This document shows, one piece after another, positions 37,206 through 48,091 of a stretch of 48,091 bases of DNA. The position numbers and the translations under genes were made by a program. This DNA is from Thermoplasmata archaeon (lineage in GTDB: Archaea > Thermoplasmatota > Thermoplasmata > Lutacidiplasmatales > UBA184). Where the stretch lies: assembly GCA_021826685.1 (NCBI GenBank), contig JAKAYT010000008.1:1-48091 (forward strand), in the 5' to 3' direction. Position 1 is the stretch's first letter, and each line of letters opens with the position of its first letter. The notes beneath the pieces are model-generated. The model saw only the letters and a program-made list of their open reading frames with translations. It was not told where the DNA came from and ran no database searches.

Positions 37206-37239
37206 GCGTCCTGTGGTGGCGCGGCCGGAGACGGACGAG

Positions 37240-37518
37240 ATGGTCCAAGTCGACATTGTAATCGAGAAGTGCACCGGTTGCGCCCACTGCCGTGACGTGT
37301 GCCCGGTGAATGTCTTCGAGCTCAAGCCCCGCGACCAATTCCCGAACGTGGTCGACGATGCCACCGTCGGGGCGAAGTTCCAGTTCCGCGGAGAGAAGTC
37401 GGTCGCGGTGAACGGCCCGGAATGCATCGTCTGCGAAGCGTGCCTCTTCGAGTGCGAAGGGGAGTGCATCGACATCACGGACGACGAAGGGCACGTCCAC
37501 CACTCGACGTACAAGTAG
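37240..37518 (+). CDS. Ferredoxin with two [4Fe-4S] clusters
   Basis: A 92-residue electron carrier. The first cluster motif is KCTGCAHCRDVCPVNVF (CxxCxxCxxxCP) and the second CIVCEACLFECEGECID (CxxCxxCxxxC), with about 35 residues between, longer than in clostridial ferredoxins. The insert (PRDQFPNVVDDATVGAKFQF) resembles that of archaeal dicluster ferredoxins. It lacks the N-terminal zinc-binding extension of Sulfolobus-type ferredoxins. The partner oxidoreductase is not in the window. The start at 37240 is supported by the TATA position; a GTG at 37213 would add nine residues. Confidence 0.9.
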   Translation: MVQVDIVIEKCTGCAHCRDVCPVNVFELKPRDQFPNVVDDATVGAKFQFRGEKSVAVNGPECIVCEACLFECEGECIDITDDEGHVHHSTYK

Positions 37519-37611: not shown

Positions 37612-37953
37612 GTGCCGGAGTCGAGCGTACGCACAGGCCGTACTGCGGTCGTTGGCGAGCGGGAGCTGGCCATCGGATTCCGATTGATCGGCATCCAGGA
37701 TGTCTTCGAGGTCACCGCCGAGAACTCGATGAAGGAGTTCTTCCGCGTGCTCGCGAGCGACGAATACAGCCTGGTCGTCGCGAGCCAGACGATCCGGTCC
37801 CGATTGACGGAAAGCCAACGCGCGCACGCGGACGCGTCGCTCCACCCGCTCGTCGTCTTCGTACCGACCCCGGGAGCGCCGGGAGCCGAGACGGAGGGGA
37901 TCGAGTCGCTCGCGAAGCGAGTGCTCGGTATCTCGCTCTCCGTTCCTCATTGA
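37612..37953 (+). CDS. atpF: A-type ATP synthase subunit F
   Basis: A 113-residue subunit of the central stalk. The family pattern is clear: VVGERELAIGFRLIGIQDVF, then EFFRVLASDEYSLVVASQTI and LHPLVVFVPTPGAP. F binds subunit D inside the A3B3 head and affects ATP hydrolysis. The GTG at 37612 is placed by the TATA box. First gene of the rightward operon; atpA begins 21 bases after its stop, with AAGGAG about eight bases before the atpA ATG. Confidence 0.92.
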   Translation: MPESSVRTGRTAVVGERELAIGFRLIGIQDVFEVTAENSMKEFFRVLASDEYSLVVASQTIRSRLTESQRAHADASLHPLVVFVPTPGAPGAETEGIESLAKRVLGISLSVPH

Positions 37954-37974: not shown

Positions 37975-40900
37975 ATGGGAGTGGTGGCAAGGGTTTCCGG
38001 TCCGGTCGTCATCGCCGAGGGCCTGGAGAACGCGAAGATGTTCGACGTCGTTCGCGTCGGCGCCCAGGGGCTGGTCGGAGAGATCATCCGGCTGGTCGAG
38101 AAGACCGCCACCGTCCAAGTGTACGAGGACACGACGGGCGTGCGCCCGGGAGACCCGGTGGAGAACACGGGACAGGCGCTCTCGGTCGAACTCGGACCCG
38201 GTCTGTTGAAATCCATCTATGACGGGGTCCAGCGCCCGCTCGACGTCCTGCAGAAAAGCTTGGGGGATTTCATCACCCGCGGATTCGTCGCTCCGCCACT
38301 GGACGAGTCGAAGAAGTGGGACTTCACGGCGACCGCCCATGCGGGCGACCACGTCACGCCCGGTACGGTCCTCGGCACCGTTCAGGAGACGCCGCTCATC
38401 CTCCACAAGATCATGGTCCCTCCCGGTGTGGAAGGGACGATCGAATCCCTGAAGGGCGGGTCGTTCACGATCCGCGAACAGATCGGTTCGCTCGCGACGG
38501 ACCACGGCAAGGTACCGCTCTACCTGAGTCAGAAGTGGGTCGTCCGCATCCCGCGGCCGGTGAGTCAGAAGCTCCCGCCCAGCATCCCGTTGGTCACCGG
38601 CCAGCGAGTCATCGACTCGTTCTTCCCCGTCGCCAAGGGCGGTTCCGCGTGCATTCCGGGACCGTTCGGATCCGGCAAATGCGTCGCGGGCGAGACGCCG
38701 GTGGTCCTCGGAAGCGGCGAGGTGCTCACAATGGAGGAGCTTTACGAGCGCTCGAAGGCCGACGGGGAGGTCTCCCTTGACGGATCCGACGAGTGGATCC
38801 GGCCGAAGGAGCCGCTGCCATTGTACTCGTGGGTCGGAGATCGACTCGTACCGAGCGAAAGCCGGACCTTCTACAAGGGAAAGAGCGACCTGCTCGTGCG
38901 AATTCGCACGCGGAGCGGGCGTACCGTACGAGTCACTCCGATCCACCGTCTCTTTACCTTCCGGCCGAACGGAGAACTCCGCGAGACCGCGGCCTCCGAG
39001 CTCGCGCCGGGCGACTACATCGCATCGGTCCATCGGATACCCGGACCGGCCCACGACCGGAGGCTGGATCTGCGCCCACCTAGGTCTCCACAAACGGGGA
39101 GGATCCTTCGAGCACCGAACACGATGACCCGCGAACTCGCCGAGTTCTTGGGTTACTTCGTCGCCGAGGGATGTTCACGAGAGGAGGAGGCAATCGCATT
39201 CTCCAGTTCGGACCCGACTCTTCTCGAGCGGTTCCTCTCACTGGGCCGGGAGCTCTTCGGACTCGAAGGGTACATCGAGCGTCCGAAGGACCGGGCTCCG
39301 AGCGCCGTCCTCCGTAGTGCTGAGCTGGTCGAGGTGTTGCACCAGCTCGGGACCGGCGGGTCGGCGGCGGAACAGCGGATCCCGCCGTCGGTGCTCGGCT
39401 CGAGCAACCGTGTCCTCGCATCGTTCCTGCTCGGTTACTATCTCGGGAGCGGGGCTGCCCGCGAAGGTGAAGTCGCGTTCCGTGCCGCGAGCGCGCGGCT
39501 CCGTACCGAGCTTACCTACGTGCTGGCCCGATTCGGGATCCTATCGACGCTCGGCCAGCGAACGATCGACGGGACCGATTCCTATCGCCTTTCCATCCCG
39601 GGCCCGGTCAGCCTCCGACGGCTCGGAGAAGTCCTCGCGTCGAGCGCGCCCCGGGCCGCTTCGATCCCGGACGACATTCCGTTCGGGCGCGCCCGCGACG
39701 TCGCCGTCGATGGGGCTCCGCTCGCTCCCCCTCCAATCGGGTGGGAGCCCCGGCTGCCCTCGAGCCCTCTCCGTAGCGGAGGGCAGATCTACCACGGTAC
39801 GGAACGCGAAGGGCGTTTGGGCGCAACGATGTTCACGACGCCCGCGTACCCCGGGGAAGACGGGGCGACGGGGGGCCACAGCGAGCTCGATGCCGATCGG
39901 CTCTGGAGAGTTCGCGATGACTTGTTCTACGACGAGGTCGTGGAGACCGCGGTCGAGCGCGCCGGACCGTACGACGTGTACGATGTGTCGGTGCCCGGCT
40001 ACGGCAGCAACTTCGTGGGGGGTGTGGGCGGCATGCTCCTCCACAACACCGTCACGCAGCAACAACTCGCCCGGTGGGCCGACTCCGACGTGGTCGTATA
40101 CGTCGGATGTGGAGAGCGGGGCAACGAGATGACCGAGGTGCTCGCCACCTTCCCGAACCTCACCGACCCGAAGACGAAGCGTCCGTTGATGGAGCGGACG
40201 ATCCTGATCGCGAACACCTCGAACATGCCGGTCGCGGCACGGGAGGCGAGCGTGTACACCGGGATCACGATCGCGGAGTACTACCGCGACATGGGCTACG
40301 ATGTCGCGTTGATGGCCGACTCCACGAGCCGATGGGCCGAGGCGATGCGCGAGATCTCCGGCCGCCTCGAGGAAATGCCCGGCGAGGAAGGGTACCCCGC
40401 CTACCTCGGACGCCGTATCGCCGAGTTCTACGAGCGCGCCGGGCGCGTGGTGACGCTCTCTCCCGATCGGCGGACCGGTTCGGTGACCGTGGTCGGGGCC
40501 GTGAGCCCCCCGGGCGGCGACTTCTCCGAGCCCGTCAGCCAGAACACCTTGCGGGTCACGCGCGTGTTCTGGGCCCTCGATGCGGCCCTCGCTTCTCGAC
40601 GCCACTTCCCCTCGATCAACTGGCTGCAGAGCTATTCGCTCTACATCGGCGATCTCGAGCCGTGGTACCGCAGCGAGCTCTCTCCGGAGTTCGTGACGCT
40701 GCGGCAACGTGCCCTGGAGGTCCTCCAGAAGGAGTCCGAGCTGCAGGAGATCGTCCAGCTCGTCGGCGTCGACGCGCTCCCCGAGCGCGAAAAGGGAACG
40801 CTGGACGTCGCGCGCATGATCCGGGAGGATTACCTCCAGCAGAGCGCGTTCGACGACGTCGACACCTACACCTCGATCCAGAAGCAGTTCCGGATGCTGC

Positions 40901-41103
40901 GGGCCATCCTCTCCTTTGGGGACCAAGAGCAGCAGGCGATTGGCAAGGGAGCGACCGTCGCCCAGCTTCAGGCGCTCCCGGTGCGCACGAAGCTCTCGCG
41001 CATGAAGTGGATCCCCGAGGCCGAGGCTCCGACGCAGTTCGACGCGCTGGAGACCGAGATGACCCAAGCGATCGGGCAGGTCGCCGCGACGGGAGGTGCC
41101 TGA
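37975..41103 (+). CDS. atpA: A-type ATP synthase catalytic subunit A with intein
   Basis: A 1042-residue precursor. Residues 1-235 and 692-1042 are the catalytic subunit; residues 236-691 are an intein. Removing it leaves a 586-residue protein of normal family length, and the joined P-loop reads GPFGSGK-TVTQQQL. Other marks are the non-homologous region with [47 protein letters not shown] and [16 protein letters not shown]. Without splicing the nucleotide site cannot form, so assembly of active enzyme depends on the intein. Located between atpF and atpB. Confidence 0.96.
38680..40047 (+). mobile_element. Intein in atpA at the Walker A site (VMA-b position)
   Basis: A 456-residue intein inserted between Lys and Thr of GSGK-T, the site used in ATPase A subunits of Thermoplasma and Pyrococcus. 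Block A is [10 protein letters not shown] with Cys1, block [11 protein letters not shown] with TxxH, block [16 protein letters not shown], and block G MLLHN with the terminal His-Asn; the +1 residue is Thr. A LAGLIDADG endonuclease is present: FLGYFVAEG near precursor residue 392 looks intact, while the second helix LLGYYLGSG near 486 lacks the acidic residue. Splicing residues are complete, so it should splice; the homing nuclease may be inactive. Confidence 0.95.
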
Positions 41104-41105
41104 CC

Positions 41106-42518
41106 GTGGCGGGCACGAGCGCGAACGTCCCTCGCATCCCGATCGACTACCGAACCGTCGACCGGGTCACCGGTCCCCTCCTCTTCGTGCGCGACGTCAC
41201 GAACGCCGCCTACGGAGAGATCGTCGAGATCGAGGTTCCCGGCGGAGAGCGACGGCAGGGCCAGGTGCTCGACTCGCGCAAAGGGCTCGCGATCGTTCAG
41301 GTGTTCGGCCCCACGATGGGCATGAACGTCGAGCAGACGAGCGTGAAGTTCCTCGGCGAGGTCGCGCGGCTCGCGGTCTCGGACGAGCTGCTCGGCCGCG
41401 TTTTCAACGGGCTCGGTGAGCCGCGCGATGGCGGGCCGAAGATCGTCAGCGAGCGCCGCTACGAGATCGTCGGGAACGCGATGAACCCGTACTCGCGCGA
41501 AGAGCCGAGCGAGTTCATCCAGACCGGCATCTCGACCATCGATGTCAACAACACGCTGGTGCGCGGCCAGAAGCTCCCGATCTTCTCGGGCGCGGGTCTT
41601 CCGCACAACCAGATCGCCGCCCAGATCGTTCGTCAGGCGAAGCTGAGGAACTCCTCCGAGAGCTTCGCGGTCGTCTTCGCCGCGATGGGAATCACGAGCG
41701 AGGAGGCCAACTACTTCCTGCGCGAGTTCGAGTCGACCGGGGCGCTCGAGCGCGCGGTCGTCTTCCTCAACCTCTCGAGCGACCCCTCGATGGAGCGCGT
41801 CGTCACGCCGCGGATGGCGCTCACCGCCGCCGAGTTCCTCGCCTACGAGCGCGACATGCACATCTTGGTCGTGCTCACGGACATGACCAACTACTGCGAG
41901 GCGCTCCGCGAGGTCGCTTCCGCCCGGGAGGAGGTACCGGGTCGCCGCGGCTACCCCGGATACATGTACACCGACCTTGCGACGATCTACGAACGCGCCG
42001 GGAAGATCCACGGACGCAAGGGATCGATCACCCAGCTCCCGATCCTGACGATGCCTGCGGACGACGTGACGCACCCGATCCCGGACCTGACCGGGTACAT
42101 CACCGAGGGCCAGATCTACGTGAGCCGCGAGCTCCAGCGCCGGGGGGTTTACCCTCCGATCGACGTCCTTCCTTCGCTCTCGCGCCTCATGAACCAGGGG
42201 ATCGGCAAGGACCGCACGCGCGAGGATCACCGCGGGGTCGCCGACCAGCTCTTCGCCGCCTACGCGACGGGAAAGGACCAACGCGCCCTCAGCGCGATCG
42301 TCGGCGAGGAGTCGCTAAGCCCCACCGACCGGATCTACCTCAAGATCGCGGACCGGTTCGAGACGGAGTTCGTCAACCAGCGGCCCGACGAGGACCGCTC
42401 GATCGACCAGAGCCTGGGGATCGCCTGGGAGATCCTGAGCGATCTTCCCGATTCCGAGCTCAAGCGCATTCGACCGGAGTTCGTGCAGAAGTACCGGGTT
42501 GCGAAGAAGGCCGCGTAG
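41106..42518 (+). CDS. atpB: A-type ATP synthase subunit B (non-catalytic)
   Basis: A 470-residue nucleotide-binding but non-catalytic head subunit. Signatures: [20 protein letters not shown], the degenerate P-loop [29 protein letters not shown] and [20 protein letters not shown], then [18 protein letters not shown]. The GTG at 41106 is preceded by GGGAGGTG at about eight bases and lies two bases after the atpA stop. Confidence 0.96.
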
Positions 42519-42543: not shown

Positions 42544-43188
42544 ATGCCCCCGGAGAATGTGCGGCCGACCCGGCTCGTCCTGTTGCAAACGCGCCGGCGC
42601 ATCGGGCTCGCGAAGCGCGGGCTCAATCTCCTCAAGCTCAAGCGCTCTGCGCTGATCGCCGAGTTCTTCGATCTTTCCAAGGAGGCGATGCGCCTGCGCG
42701 GGGACCTCGCGCAGCGCGTCGCCCGCGGCTACGAGGCGATCCGCGTCGCCGAGATGATGGAAGGAACGACCCGGCTCGAGAACATCTCGCTTCTGTTGCC
42801 CGAGATCACCCCGATCGGAGTGTCGACGAAGAACGTGATGGGCGTCAAGACCCCCCAGGTCCAACGCGGCGCCTACGCTCCGGTCCCCTCGGCCGCGCTG
42901 CTCGACCTGCCGACGTCGATTCACGAGGCGATCCACCACTTCCAGGGGATCTACCAGGTCGTGCTCGACATCGCGGAAAAGGAGAACGCGCTGCGCCGCC
43001 TGCTACTCGAGATCGAGAAGACCAAGCGCCGCGCCAGCGCCATCGAGAACGTCCTGATCCCTCGCCTTCAGGACACCGTACGCTACATCAAGTTCCGATT
43101 CGATGAGATGGAGCGCGACTCGTTCAGCATGCTCAAGACGGTGAAGCGGAAGATGGAACAGGAGGAAGCCGCCGGTGTGGGCGCCTAA
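42544..43188 (+). CDS. atpD: A-type ATP synthase subunit D (central stalk)
   Basis: A 214-residue coiled-coil rotor shaft subunit. N-terminal PTRLVLLQTRRRIGLAKRGL with LLKLKRSALI, and C-terminal RRASAIENVLIPRLQDTVRY, are the characteristic antiparallel helices; the middle part (PQVQRGAYAPVP) is a short non-helical insertion. ATG at 42544 follows GGGAGGAG. The stop lies inside the start of the 48-aa membrane protein gene. Confidence 0.95.
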   Translation: MPPENVRPTRLVLLQTRRRIGLAKRGLNLLKLKRSALIAEFFDLSKEAMRLRGDLAQRVARGYEAIRVAEMMEGTTRLENISLLLPEITPIGVSTKNVMGVKTPQVQRGAYAPVPSAALLDLPTSIHEAIHHFQGIYQVVLDIAEKENALRRLLLEIEKTKRRASAIENVLIPRLQDTVRYIKFRFDEMERDSFSMLKTVKRKMEQEEAAGVGA

Positions 43189-43321
43189 TCCGATCCACCC
43201 CGTCGCCGCGACGCCCGCAGCGCGTCGCTTCCGCGCGGTCTGGGTCCTCTCCTGGGCGTGGAAGATCGCCGCCGCGGTCCTCTTCCTGGCCCTCCTCGTC
43301 AAGCTATCGGGAGGCCTGTAG
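43175..43321 (+). CDS. 48-residue single-helix membrane protein in the ATPase operon
   Basis: A small ORF with GTG start at 43175, preceded by GGAGGA at about eight bases inside the end of atpD, which it overlaps by 14 bases. The product has a basic, Pro-containing N-terminus (APNPIHPVAATPAARRF) and one membrane helix of about 20 residues (VWVLSWAWKIAAAVLFLALL). It ends 9 bases before atpH. The fixed spacing, ribosome site and hydrophobicity argue that it is translated. It matches no standard A-ATPase subunit (A-F, H, I, K). It could be an accessory or assembly subunit, like the small e subunit of eukaryotic V-ATPase, but that is conjecture. Confidence 0.6.
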   Translation: MWAPNPIHPVAATPAARRFRAVWVLSWAWKIAAAVLFLALLVKLSGGL

Positions 43322-43330
43322 TAGGAACCC

Positions 43331-43699
43331 ATGGCCGCGAACGCATCCCCCTCTACGGTCGTCGGCTCGCTGGACGAACTCAAGCGCGTCAAGGACGTCG
43401 AACGCGAGTGGGACGAGCGCGTCCGCGACGCTCACGCGCGGGCGGACACGGCGCTCCAGCACCTGCGCGAAGACGCGGACGCCCGCATCGCTCTCGCGCG
43501 GACGGCGGCCCGCCAGTCCCGCGAGGAACGCGTCCGGGCCGCCCAGCAGGAGGGCGATCGCGAGGCTGCGCAGATCCTCGCTGCGGGAGCGGCCGAGGCG
43601 GAGCAGGTCGCCGCCGGCACCGGTTCGGCGCCGGCCGAGCAGCGAGAGGCGATCCTCCGCGCCGTGCTCGGGGAGTTTCTCACCGACGGTTCCGTGTAG
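43331..43699 (+). CDS. atpH: A-type ATP synthase subunit H (peripheral stalk)
   Basis: A 122-residue, charged, Ala-rich coiled-coil protein (VDEREW-type heptads; ADTALQHLREDADARIALAR, then AARQSREERVRAAQQEGDRE). This length, composition and place directly before atpI fit subunit H (also called G), which pairs with E in the peripheral stalks. Identification rests on context and coiled coil rather than on a motif. Confidence 0.85.
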   Translation: MAANASPSTVVGSLDELKRVKDVEREWDERVRDAHARADTALQHLREDADARIALARTAARQSREERVRAAQQEGDREAAQILAAGAAEAEQVAAGTGSAPAEQREAILRAVLGEFLTDGSV

Positions 43700-43721: not shown

Positions 43722-45731
43722 ATGGGGATCCTGCGACCGGAGCCGATGCGCAAGGTCGGCGTCCTCGGCCTTACGGACGACCGGGAAGCGGTGCTCACCG
43801 CGCTCCACGACCTGCGCGTGGCCCAGATCGAGCCGGTCTGCGCCGAGACGCTCCAGTACCTCGAGCCCGAACGCGCGAGCGAGACCCAGCGTTCTGTCGG
43901 CGACGAGGCCCTTCGGTTCCGGGGCCTGAAGGCGGCCCTCCCCTCGGTCCCCGTACCCCAGCCGATGCGGTTCCAGGACCTTCCGGCGATCCTCGCCGCC
44001 GCGCGGACCGTTCCGATCGATGCCGAGGTCGGCGCGCTCGTGCGGGAGGACGATCGCCTCCAGACGGAGCTCAAAGGGCTCCGGGAGACGGTCACACTCC
44101 TCGGGAAGCTCTCCTTCTATCACGACCCGCTGGACGACCTGTCGACCCGGACCTACCTACCGTTCCTCGCCGAGGGTCCTTTGGATCTGGTCGATCGGCT
44201 GCGAGCGACGTATCCGGCGGAGACGGAGGTCGTGACGGTCGCCGCGCCGGACCCGGCCCGGGCGATCGTCCTCTTCCCCCGCAGCCACGCGGACCTCGTC
44301 GGTCGAGTGCTCCCCTCCAGCGGGATCCGGTTGACGGCGGTGCCGACGCTCGCCCGGAGCGTCCCGGAGGAGACCGCCCGCCTCGAAGAGGAGAGCGCGC
44401 GCGTGACGCGACGGCGCGCCGAGATCCGGGCCCGGCTCGCCGAGATCTCGAAGGAGTGGTACCCTCTCGTCGCCGCGCTCGAAGAAGCGCTCTCCATCCA
44501 GAACCGGCTCTTCGAGGTCTACACCAAGCTCGGCCGAGGGCCGAACACCTTCGCGGTGGAGGGATGGGTCCCAAGGCGCGAACTCGATCGACTGCGCGCG
44601 GCCATCGAGCGCGTGAGCTCGGGCCGCGCGTACTTCTACCTCGTCCCGACGCGCGAGGAGCCGCCGACCCTGATGCGCAACCCCGCGGGCGTGCGGCGCT
44701 ACGAATTCTTCATCCGGTTCTACTCGCTCCCTCAGGCCACGGAGTGGGACCCGACGATCGTCTTCGCGATCGTCTTCCCCATCTTCTTCGGCCTCATGCT
44801 CGGCGATTGGGGCTACGGCCTCGTCATCCTCGGCATCAGCCTCTGGATGATCGGCGGGTTCCCCGGGGGCCGCTACGTCCCCCGAGCGCTGCGCAACTTC
44901 GTCACGAGGATCATGAGCCCGCCGGCGATGCGTCAGCTCGCCTACGCCCTCCTCCCCGGTTGCGCGATCGCGATCGGCCTCGGCCTCTACTTTGACGAGT
45001 TCTTCGGCTTCGCGGTGCTCCATACGCTGTTCGGCTACACCGCCCCGTTCTCGCCGCTCGCGAACGTCGGGACGCTCCTGGTCATCGCGGGATACATCGG
45101 CGTCGCGATGGTCACGTTCGGCTTCCTGCTCGGGGCCATCAAGGAGACCCTCCACCACCACCCGCGCGAGGCGGTCGCGAAGGTCGGCGGGATCATCTTC
45201 ACCTGGGGGATCGCCTTGTTCGGGCTCTACGTCATTCACCAGCACGGCTTCTCGGGCTCGCTCCTCTACCCGTACCTCGGGGTCGTGATCGCCGGGCTCG
45301 TGGTCCTCCTCGTCGGAGAGGGAGGCTTCGGGATCATGGGGCTCATCGAGATCGTGAGCCACATCCTGTCCTACACGCGTCTCGTGGGCATCCTGCTCGC
45401 GAGCGTCGTTCTCGCGAGCGTCATCGACCTCATCGGGACGCACCTGCCGCACCACTTCCCGGCGGAGTTCGTGGCCGTGGGGATCTTCGTCGGCGCGATC
45501 ATCCTCGTTATCGGCCAAGCGTTCAACGTCGTCCTCGGCGTCTTCGAGCCGGGGATCCAAGGGGCGCGTCTGATCTTCGTCGAGTACTTCTCGAAGTTCT
45601 ACACGGGCAACGGCCGGCCGTTCCGCCCGTTCGGCTCGGAGCGCGCCTACACCGCCCCTCCCGAGCCGCCGGGCGGCACCCCTTCGGGCGCGAGTCCCCT
45701 CGGCCCGATCCTGCGGGCCCCGGAGCCGTAG
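43722..45731 (+). CDS. atpI: A-type ATP synthase subunit I (a subunit)
   Basis: A 669-residue stator membrane subunit. The N-terminal cytoplasmic half (1-340) contains MRKVGVLGLTDDREAVLTAL and coiled coils and binds the peripheral stalks. The C-terminal half has about seven to eight helices, including FPIFFGLMLGDWGYGLVIL and the key SHILSYTRLVGILLASVVLA, whose Arg faces the ring carboxylate during ion transfer. The ending FVEYFSKFYTGNGRPFRPF is typical; a Pro-rich tail of about 35 residues is extra. AGGGG precedes the ATG. Last gene of the rightward unit, seven bases from the convergent atpC stop. Confidence 0.95.
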   Translation: MGILRPEPMRKVGVLGLTDDREAVLTALHDLRVAQIEPVCAETLQYLEPERASETQRSVGDEALRFRGLKAALPSVPVPQPMRFQDLPAILAAARTVPIDAEVGALVREDDRLQTELKGLRETVTLLGKLSFYHDPLDDLSTRTYLPFLAEGPLDLVDRLRATYPAETEVVTVAAPDPARAIVLFPRSHADLVGRVLPSSGIRLTAVPTLARSVPEETARLEEESARVTRRRAEIRARLAEISKEWYPLVAALEEALSIQNRLFEVYTKLGRGPNTFAVEGWVPRRELDRLRAAIERVSSGRAYFYLVPTREEPPTLMRNPAGVRRYEFFIRFYSLPQATEWDPTIVFAIVFPIFFGLMLGDWGYGLVILGISLWMIGGFPGGRYVPRALRNFVTRIMSPPAMRQLAYALLPGCAIAIGLGLYFDEFFGFAVLHTLFGYTAPFSPLANVGTLLVIAGYIGVAMVTFGFLLGAIKETLHHHPREAVAKVGGIIFTWGIALFGLYVIHQHGFSGSLLYPYLGVVIAGLVVLLVGEGGFGIMGLIEIVSHILSYTRLVGILLASVVLASVIDLIGTHLPHHFPAEFVAVGIFVGAIILVIGQAFNVVLGVFEPGIQGARLIFVEYFSKFYTGNGRPFRPFGSERAYTAPPEPPGGTPSGASPLGPILRAPEP

Positions 45732-45738
45732 GCCCGGC

Positions 45739-46818
45739 CTACGCGAAGCGGGGGTTTGTGAGCATGCGGCCGAGCCTTTCCGACGGGATGCCGTAGAGAA
45801 CCCCGTAGGTCACGCGCCGTAGGTCGGAGCGTTCCAGCTCGGCGATCAAGAGGTAGGCGAAGATCCCGCCCAAGCTCATCGGGTAGCTCGAGAGGCGCCG
45901 GAGCTCGGCCGCGGCCCGCTCGCGCTGGAGGTGGACGTCGTAGTGTGCGAGGCTCTGCGCCTCGGAGTACGCGGCGTTGCCCTCGGAGAGCGTGGGGTAA
46001 TGGGGCGAGAGGCGGTCGACGAGTTCCGGCACGGAGCGCGCGGTGTAGAGGTCGGTCGCCTCGTGGGCCGGGATCGATCCTCCCTCGATCCACCGGCCCT
46101 GGACGTCCTCGAGAGGGAGGTCGGAGTCCTTCCCCTTCAGGAGCACGAGCACGTTGCCGACGTCGATCTCGCTCCGGACGAGCTGGCGGACGATCCACTC
46201 ATCGCCCTGGAAGAAGCGGGCCGCCTCGAGGAGGCCCGCGTAGTACTGGATCCGCAAGGCATGCAGGAACGGGAAGATGTCCCGCGTGCGGCGGAACTCC
46301 TCGAGGAGCGGAAGGAGCGGACCGCCGTAGCCGAAGCGCACGAGGTCGGTGATGACCGCGTCGATCGTCGGTTGCCCTACCAGGTTGCGCAGGTCGTCCA
46401 GCGAGAGGGTACCGGCGATGAGACCCGCCGGGATGTCGCGGCTGCTGACGAGTTCGGTGTCGGAGAGCGTGAGCGGGCGGCTCTGCGCCTTGCTCGCGAG
46501 GATGGCCCCGATGTTCTCGATGTCCCAGCGCTTCAGATACGCGGCGATGACGAGGCGGCCGGCGAAGGGCGTCGCGTCGAAGGCGTGTCGGTTGCGCCGC
46601 ACGAGCGTGCGGTTGACCGCCGCTTCGATGAGCGGGAGCCCGGAGTAGGCCGCGCGGGCCTGATCCAGCTCGAAGGCGTACGGGGTCAGGGCGAGCTGTT
46701 TCGCGATCTCGTCGACGGAGGTCGCGGAGAGGAACGGGGCGAATGACTCCTTCGTGAGGAATGAGATGCCGTCGGCTTTGAGGCGGCCGAGGGAGCTCGC
46801 ATAGGGGCTGCCGGCCAC
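45739..46818 (-). CDS. atpC: A-type ATP synthase subunit C (d subunit)
   Basis: A 359-residue, all-helical funnel that couples the central stalk to the c ring. The three-fold repeat is visible through similar helices such as YLKRWDIENIGAILASKA, RIQYYAGLLEAARFFQGDE, VRSEIDVGNVLVLLKGKDSD and ERSDLRRVTYGVLYGIPS. ATG at 46818 follows the atpE stop by 15 bases. Last gene of the leftward K-E-C unit. Confidence 0.94.
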   Translation of the reverse strand: MAGSPYASSLGRLKADGISFLTKESFAPFLSATSVDEIAKQLALTPYAFELDQARAAYSGLPLIEAAVNRTLVRRNRHAFDATPFAGRLVIAAYLKRWDIENIGAILASKAQSRPLTLSDTELVSSRDIPAGLIAGTLSLDDLRNLVGQPTIDAVITDLVRFGYGGPLLPLLEEFRRTRDIFPFLHALRIQYYAGLLEAARFFQGDEWIVRQLVRSEIDVGNVLVLLKGKDSDLPLEDVQGRWIEGGSIPAHEATDLYTARSVPELVDRLSPHYPTLSEGNAAYSEAQSLAHYDVHLQRERAAAELRRLSSYPMSLGGIFAYLLIAELERSDLRRVTYGVLYGIPSERLGRMLTNPRFA

Positions 46819-46833
46819 GAGCGCGTCCCTCCG

Positions 46834-47385
46834 CTACGCGAGGAGCTCGCGGACGCGGTCTTCGCGCAGGCGCAGAAGCTCGTTGAAGGAGAGGTCGAGC
46901 TGGCGGCTCCCGTCGGGGGTCTCGGCGATGAGGCCTCCCACGATGGGGATGGGGTTCGGATCGACGCGCCCCGGAGCGATGCGCTTCAAGGCCGCGGCGT
47001 CCTCGGCCCGACCTTTGAGACGCACGTCCGGGCCGAGGGCCCCGGTCGCGTAGCGGTACATGCGCTCGAGGACCTTCGGGTACTCCGGACGGGTCGTGTA
47101 GTCGGCGAGCAGTTGGTGGGTGGCGCCGAGCGAGGACTTCAATCGCGCCTCGCGCGCCTCATACAGGCGCTGCCGGGACCGAAGCTTCGCGGCGGCGACC
47201 CGCTGCACGCGCTCGTGGTTCGCCTCGATGGTCCCCGCGCGCTCGGACTCTTGCTGTATCTCGAGAATGCGCCGGTCTCGATCGGCCGCGATCTTGGCCG
47301 TCTCGATCGCGGCGTTCTCTTCGATGGAGCGGACCTCGGCCTCGCCTCGGGCGCGAATCTCTTCGACGAGGCGGTCTAGGCTCAT
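46834..47385 (-). CDS. atpE: A-type ATP synthase subunit E (peripheral stalk)
   Basis: A 183-residue protein: N-terminal coiled coil (SLDRLVEEIRARGEAEVRSI, then AAIETAKIAADRDRRILEIQ) and a C-terminal globular head-binding domain with GGLIAETPDGSRQLDLSFNE, matching the GGxxxxxxDG pattern of subunit E. The ATG at 47385 begins at the family's normal start; the frame is open further upstream but overlaps the end of atpK. Confidence 0.95.
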   Translation of the reverse strand: MSLDRLVEEIRARGEAEVRSIEENAAIETAKIAADRDRRILEIQQESERAGTIEANHERVQRVAAAKLRSRQRLYEAREARLKSSLGATHQLLADYTTRPEYPKVLERMYRYATGALGPDVRLKGRAEDAAALKRIAPGRVDPNPIPIVGGLIAETPDGSRQLDLSFNELLRLREDRVRELLA

Positions 47386-47405
47386 CGCGCCCCGCTCGTC
47401 CCGGA

Positions 47406-47624
47406 CTACAGGATCCCCAGCAGCAGGATGATCCCGAGCACGAACCCGATGATCCACAGCGTCTCGGGGATGACGAAGAAGAAGAGCACCTGACCGAACT
47501 TCTCGGGCTTCTCGGCGATGATCCCCATACCGGCGGCGCCGATCCCGGACTGGGCCATGCCCGTCCCGATCAGGCCTCCGGCGATTGCGATACCCGCGGC
47601 GAGCACGGCGTAATCCGATACCAT
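47406..47624 (-). CDS. atpK: A-type ATP synthase subunit K (c-ring proteolipid)
   Basis: A 72-residue two-helix hairpin. Helix 1 is AVLAAGIAIAGGLIGTGMAQ with a polar Gln, the loop is IIAEKPEKFGQ, and helix 2 LFFFVIPETLWIIGFVLGII has the ion-binding Glu54 in PETL. Gln in helix 1 plus Glu-Thr in helix 2 resembles sodium-binding rings, but proton coupling is equally possible from sequence alone. The ATG at 47624 lies about 50 bases from the strong TATA at 47671-47677, giving a leader of roughly 20 bases. Confidence 0.94.
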   Translation of the reverse strand: MVSDYAVLAAGIAIAGGLIGTGMAQSGIGAAGMGIIAEKPEKFGQVLFFFVIPETLWIIGFVLGIILLLGIL

Positions 47625-47701: not shown

Positions 47702-48091
47702 CTACGGTTCGTCTTCGTTTTCGTCGGAGTCGTTGGGGGTCTCGGGAGGGGCGCGGGCGAGGGCGATCGCGCCGCCCCAAGCGATGAATCCCATCGCGTA
47801 CGCCGAGGCGCAGACGACGCAAACCGCGTGGATCACGGACAGTTCTACGTAGAGGAAGTACAGGGCCAAGGCGATTCCGATGGTCGTGAGCGCGATGAGT
47901 CCGTAGACGTAGCGCCGGTCCTTGGGATTCCGCTCGGCCAGGCTAGCCACGACGAGGATCAGTATGAATCCGAGCACTCCCCAGAGCCAGTCGGGGAGGT
48001 AGAGCGTGGTCGTATGGCCGCTGTTGGCCACCGCTGCGCACGAGAAGAACGTGTTGATCGTGCAAAGCTTGGTCAGCCCTGCATCGATCAC
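47702..48091 (-). CDS. VKOR-family disulfide oxidoreductase, 5' end outside window
   Basis: At least 129 residues of a vitamin K epoxide reductase homologue; the gene runs past the right edge, and the first helix is probably missing. The loop-cysteine pair is CTINTFFSCAAVANSG (Cys and Ser-Cys as in VKOR), and the active-site CxxC is IHAVCVVCASAYAMGF at the start of the last helix. In prokaryotes VKOR reoxidises DsbA-like thiol oxidases using quinone. The C-terminal tail is acidic (DENEDEP). No DsbA-like gene is in the window. Confidence 0.88.
   Translation of the reverse strand: MIDAGLTKLCTINTFFSCAAVANSGHTTTLYLPDWLWGVLGFILILVVASLAERNPKDRRYVYGLIALTTIGIALALYFLYVELSVIHAVCVVCASAYAMGFIAWGGAIALARAPPETPNDSDENEDEP

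Follow-up and report, generated by a model that had tools for sequence, protein, structure and literature searches.

The window analyzed here, a 48,091-nucleotide stretch of a Lutacidiplasmatales (Thermoplasmatota) metagenome-assembled genome (MAG), carries an A-ATPase operon; its best relatives, one of them Candidatus Lutacidiplasma silvani, are MAGs of Thermoplasmata. On the plus strand, atpF (37612..37953; PF01990) is followed by atpA (37975..41103), which contains an in-frame intein with a LAGLIDADG domain (PF00006, PF14890, PF14528), and by atpB (41106..42518), which was assigned from its position and the gene order (PMC9287336) and whose start was placed by inference at a GTG with GGGAGG upstream. 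Next come atpD (42544..43188; PF01813, E = 7e-48), encoding the central rotor stalk, an atpH-like gene for a peripheral-stalk subunit (43331..43699; TIGR02926 AhaH, E = 1.2e-5, below the curated cutoff), and atpI (43722..45731; PF01496, with V-type subunit I structures in the PDB), encoding the membrane stator subunit. The genes atpC (45739..46818; PF01992), atpE (46834..47457; PF01991), and atpK, encoding the proteolipid (47406..47624; PF00137), lie on the minus strand and form a block (45739-47624) that converges on the plus-strand series F-A-B-D-small-H-I; the listed atpE and atpK ORFs overlap. This arrangement, F-A-B-D-H-I / C-E-K, agrees with the FABDH/GICEK order given for Lutacidiplasmatales in passages of PMC9287336. 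A ferredoxin-like 4Fe-4S ORF (37213-37518) lies directly upstream of atpF, and a VKOR-like ORF (47702-48091, minus strand), which has a weak NCBIfam match below the curated cutoffs, adjoins the atpK-E-C block.

The plus-strand series also includes a small membrane-protein gene (43175..43321) encoding a protein of 48 amino acids and 5.2 kDa. It starts with GTG, which is separated by an 8-nt spacer from a GGAGGA ribosome-binding site (43161..43166) situated within the atpD coding sequence, and it ends with a TAG stop codon at 43319-43321. The first 14 nt of the ORF (43175..43188) overlap the 3' end of atpD, whose TAA stop codon occupies 43186-43188, and atpH starts at 43331, 10 nt past the end of the small ORF. 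The encoded protein consists of a Pro/Ala-rich N-terminal tail, an RRF motif at residues 17 to 19, a helix at residues 14 to 44 with Lys30 near its middle (11 positions past the motif Phe; F+11), and a C-terminal end in which Lys43 is followed by a GG tail; it has a single hydrophobic segment. When we reread the sequence, the length, coordinates, frame, GTG start, GGAGGA site, and single hydrophobic helix were all as described in an earlier account made without database searches (here referred to as the sequence-only reading). That account placed the gene between atpD and atpH, which is accurate on the atpH side and inaccurate on the other, where the ORF runs into atpD.

The genome is GC-rich and contains many spurious ORFs, which would favor reading the small ORF as a product of chance. 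The Lutacidiplasmatales loci surveyed extended to at most 10 kb each. At 67 of 72 atpD stop codons in them, an ORF of 28 to 100 aa with a transmembrane (TM)-grade segment began; the same criterion applied to six other atp genes of these loci (A, B, F, H, I, and C) gave 0 of 361 3' ends. The start lay 8 to 23 nt ahead of the atpD stop codon in all distinct Lutacidiplasmatales ORFs collected (71/71). A profile of this family (set A1) matched 61 of the 78 genomes of the genus that were searched, usually once each; every match for which the position of atpD was known touched atpD (49/49), and two genomes with two atpD genes carried two copies of the small gene. We also compared synonymous and nonsynonymous changes in related genomes, using the 11 closest disjoint pairs, which were chosen as nearest pairs by atpD identity (90 to 99% at the nucleotide level). 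The pooled dN/dS was 0.36 (bootstrap 95% interval, 0.26 to 0.49), indicating purifying selection, and the control values were 1.36 and 2.89 for the two other sense frames and 1.69, 0.53, and 3.13 for the three antisense frames. The value for atpD in the same 11 pairs was approximately 0.08, so the small gene is faster evolving yet constrained; its sequence conservation within the genus is modest. An all-pairs version of the calculation was discarded, because with high GC3 the synonymous sites seem saturated already at low values and distant pairs gave ratios above 1. The ORF counts, the dN/dS of 0.36, and the genome-wide profile matches found only beside atpD refute a chance origin, to which we give practically no weight. 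We conclude that a genuine gene occupies 43175-43321. The sequence-only reading is thus borne out where it takes the protein to be real, unannotated, built around one helix, and linked to the A-ATPase operon, and both the helix and the reading frame are conserved in close relatives.

An AlphaFold model computed with 52 relatives contained one predicted helix, spanning residues 14 to 44, with a mean pLDDT of 82 and values above 90 in the core. The net charge is approximately +3 on the N-terminal side of the helix and +0.4 on the C-terminal side, an excess from which the positive-inside rule predicts that the N terminus should face the cytoplasm. Both membrane insertion and this topology are predictions. 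Conservation peaked at helical periodicity in three separately analyzed sets (P = 0.066 to 0.088 each, individually not significant), and the conserved face common to the three comprises F+4, F+7, F+11, F+14/15, and F+18. Such a face is what a helix lying against a second membrane protein would be expected to show.

The ORFs collected outside the Lutacidiplasmatales were placed in three further sets: A2 (Nitrososphaeria), A3 (Thermoplasmatales), and A4 (other Thermoplasmatota). In V-type operons of Nitrososphaeria, an ORF of 41 to 80 aa was present at the D-H junction in 30 of the 30 loci examined. Its start codon fell within -38 to +4 of the atpD stop codon in 29 of them; in locus L212, the first ATG, GTG, or TTG start was at +85. 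The best-conserved Nitrososphaeria form is MPNFVNQQQRKFFLIIRAFKLGNILGTVALALYAGKHFFGV, and dN/dS among these ammonia-oxidizing archaea was 0.14. Profile alignment with hhalign gave a probability of 85% for A1 with A2 (E = 6e-6), 55% for A1 with A3, and 45% for A2 with A3; one Thermoplasmatales contig (L286) carries a 56-aa member. The pattern taken to mark these three sets is an [RK][RK]F motif followed, 11 positions past its Phe and inside one helix, by a polar residue (K, R, or N), with a start near the atpD stop codon; the window protein shows this pattern with R18, F19, and K30. The profile alignments line this residue up between lineages: at F+11, Lutacidiplasmatales have Lys or Arg in 90% of cases, Nitrososphaeria have Asn in 65% and Lys or Arg in 29%, and Thermoplasmatales have Asn in 73%. 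Judged by these profile and motif comparisons, the small gene is spread over two archaeal phyla.

Family A4, whose 40-row alignment shows a TPEKKA-like motif and one glycine that never varies, lies after atpD in most other Thermoplasmatota. It resembles the window ORF in position, size, and single helix and is under purifying selection (dN/dS, 0.13), but its profile comparison with the Lutacidiplasmatales set gave only a 5.5% probability of relation and serves as a negative control. One A4 member (L141:3267-3389) scores above the cutoff for PF13396 (PLDc_N; E = 8.5e-6), probably through hydrophobic-helix similarity. A small ORF followed atpD in 25 of 34 loci in one scan and in 48 of 69 in another, counts that include Thermoplasmatales. 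A TM ORF at the atpD stop codon was found in none of 30 Thermoproteota loci, selected for the highest-scoring A-type D genes, and in none of three bacterial loci. Five A-type Thermoproteota loci (L184, L187, L196, L199, and L200) carry a soluble, coiled-coil-like ORF of 43 to 48 aa exactly at the atpD stop codon, which we presume may be the Sulfolobus-type epsilon subunit. Alternatively, this ORF may bear on the subunit H described as missing in neutrophilic ammonia oxidizers in passages of PMC6863869.

Within the groups that carry the small gene, some lineages lack it. In L081, L087, and L116 to L118, D runs straight into H with the junction intact, and two Thermoplasmatota families (f34 and f40) are largely without the gene; no relocated copies were detected in the loci examined from genomes without it. 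The five named loci represent natural loss lineages. Because the gene is absent from relatives that keep the operon and an intact D-H junction, it is dispensable and not a core subunit. A4 is also present where atpD ends the operon, and from the occurrence of a small ORF after an operon-terminal atpD it follows that the gene tracks atpD and not atpH. The sequence-only reading had proposed tight coupling with both D and H; the coupling to atpD stands, and that to atpH does not, given that in many Thermoplasmatota the small ORF follows atpD even as the last gene of the operon.

Since operon rearrangements leave the gene beside atpD, the rotor/A0 unit (D, C, and the K ring) or AtpI would be a more natural partner than H, and a partner of this kind favors an accessory A0 component. 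Our preferred reading, to which we assign a probability of about 55%, is that the small protein is an accessory, noncatalytic, nonessential single-pass component of the membrane A0 sector that is translated in coupling with atpD; its association with the enzyme complex is suggested by genomic linkage. Translation of the microprotein would be tightly coupled to that of its constant neighbor, and the product would be dedicated to the A/V-type ATPase. The single helix, with its N terminus in the cytoplasm, would pack the conserved face against a membrane subunit, placing near mid-helix a polar residue that is Lys or Arg in Lutacidiplasmatales and Asn in ammonia oxidizers and Thermoplasmatales. 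The helix may thereby stabilize the rotor/A0 unit or tune its assembly, and the gene may have moved between phyla together with the acid-type operon.

The main rival holds that the protein is a transient A0 assembly factor, comparable to AtpI of F-type operons or to Vma21: it would assist in building the proteolipid ring or in attaching D/C to that ring and would not be kept in the finished enzyme. A product that is small, dispensable, fast evolving within the genus, encoded in the operon, and coupled to the rotor gene D would suit such a helper, but a conserved helix face with a polar mid-helix residue suits a lasting contact equally well or better, and we regard a transient role as possible, though less likely than that of a lasting component. 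A regulatory microprotein of the KdpF or AcrZ type, which would modulate the ATPase or a neighboring transporter, for example by gating under acid stress, would also have a single-pass architecture, and the acid-adaptive V-type operon treated in passages of PMC6863869 is accompanied by homologous members. However, the same position is filled by A4 in many other Thermoplasmatota, so a role specific to acid is conjectural, and a regulatory role seems unlikely.

Two further explanations would tie the small gene to atpH. The sequence-only reading suggested, among other roles, that the protein might be a membrane anchor, here for the peripheral-stalk subunit H or for E/H, and the gene is indeed directly 5' of atpH both in the window and in the V-type operons of Nitrososphaeria. 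This role is weakened by the small ORFs that follow an operon-terminal atpD: other Thermoplasmatota carry a small TM gene after atpD without H next to it (gene order as given in passages of PMC9287336), and L116 to L118 and L087 retain D-H without the small gene. We consider an anchor for H slightly less probable still than a regulator. The overlap with atpD and the proximity to atpH could also reflect a leader ORF that sets atpH expression, or serves translational coupling, through an inert peptide. Against that explanation, purifying selection acts on the amino acid sequence in each of three lineages, and where no atp gene follows, a conserved TM protein is nevertheless present; both results disfavor an inert leader, which we consider very improbable. 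Overall, the interpretation offered by the sequence-only reading is partly supported, being right in kind but too local and narrow.

In searches of curated families and structures, the window protein had no Pfam or NCBIfam match over the curated cutoffs and no sequence match to any PDB chain, including the small subunits of eukaryotic and bacterial V-ATPases. The solved V/A-ATPases that we found, which are Thermus-type, Enterococcus, and eukaryotic enzymes and none from these archaea, contain no matching chain. Several small membrane proteins of rotary ATPases invite comparison. In the V-type Na+-ATPase operon of Enterococcus hirae, a small gene, ntpH, has been reported after ntpD. In the one Enterococcus atp locus examined (L205, on a plasmid of E. 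gallinarum), the scan detected no TM ORF beginning at the atpD stop codon; a 57-aa hypothetical ORF lies approximately 330 nt past D. The eukaryotic V-ATPase subunits e and f, ATP6AP1, ATP6AP2, and Vma21 are small or single-pass proteins of V0 or its assembly, but they differ from the window protein in topology and size, and no similarity of the window protein to any PDB chain was detectable. The AtpI/AtpZ-type proteins of F-type operons are small, operon-encoded membrane assembly helpers, usually with two or more helices; they belong to another enzyme class, and no similarity to the window protein was found.

The closest known counterpart is AhaG, likened here by its described position, size, and hydrophobicity. 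The sequence-only reading saw no place for such a protein among the standard A-ATPase subunits and so overlooked AhaG, a 6.3-kDa hydrophobic protein of the Methanosarcina mazei A1A0 enzyme whose gene follows ahaD and which yielded one very hydrophobic tryptic peptide (PMC4350412). Its participation in the Methanosarcina enzyme was never settled, and its role was disputed because homologues seemed absent elsewhere (PMC4350412). In Methanothermobacter, ahaG is listed beside ahaD (PMC3087415). As with AhaG, the window ORF directly follows the D gene of an A-ATPase operon (PMC3087415, PMC4350412), and its 5.24-kDa product with a helix at residues 14 to 44 parallels the size of approximately 6 kDa and the strongly hydrophobic stretch of AhaG. 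According to PMC3750248, neither Thermoplasma acidophilum nor the Thermoplasmatales of acid mine drainage have AhaG; in contrast, a small TM ORF follows atpD in the Thermoplasmatales examined here. By this comparison of descriptions, the window gene is an unannotated relative in kind of the known but neglected AhaG-like, D-linked microproteins, and, going by the loci surveyed, membrane genes of this small, D-linked type seem to be far more common than the AhaG literature implied.

Rotary ATPases are among the best-studied machines. Given that the gene is real, under selection, and recurrent at the same spot in many other archaea, it is probable that standard annotation has overlooked a small additional part of these enzymes. 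The acid-type operon, for which passages of PMC6863869 list nine subunits, is credited there with having let ammonia-oxidizing archaea spread to the deep sea and to acidic soils; the main-text passages of PMC6863869 and PMC9287336 make no mention of the small gene. A published V-atp construct from Nitrosotalea okcheonensis, codon-optimized for heterologous expression, improved growth at pH 4.5 to 5.0 (PMC6863869). We tentatively propose, as a possibility below even odds, that acid-type archaeal V/A-ATPases have a tenth, hitherto unrecognized stoichiometric subunit, a single-pass helix of 36 to 80 residues encoded at the atpD stop codon, whose mid-membrane Lys, Arg, or Asn would contact the stator or the proteolipid ring and tune proton coupling or assembly. 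This subunit would have crossed between phyla together with the operon, and comparable D-linked helices (A4 and AhaG) would be widespread in archaea. Because every one of the 30 V-type Nitrososphaeria loci examined carries this conserved extra membrane gene, a part may be missing from reconstructions, from heterologous expression, and from structural studies of these enzymes. The gene also allows the unsettled question of AhaG to be approached by comparison between lineages and by a direct genetic test.
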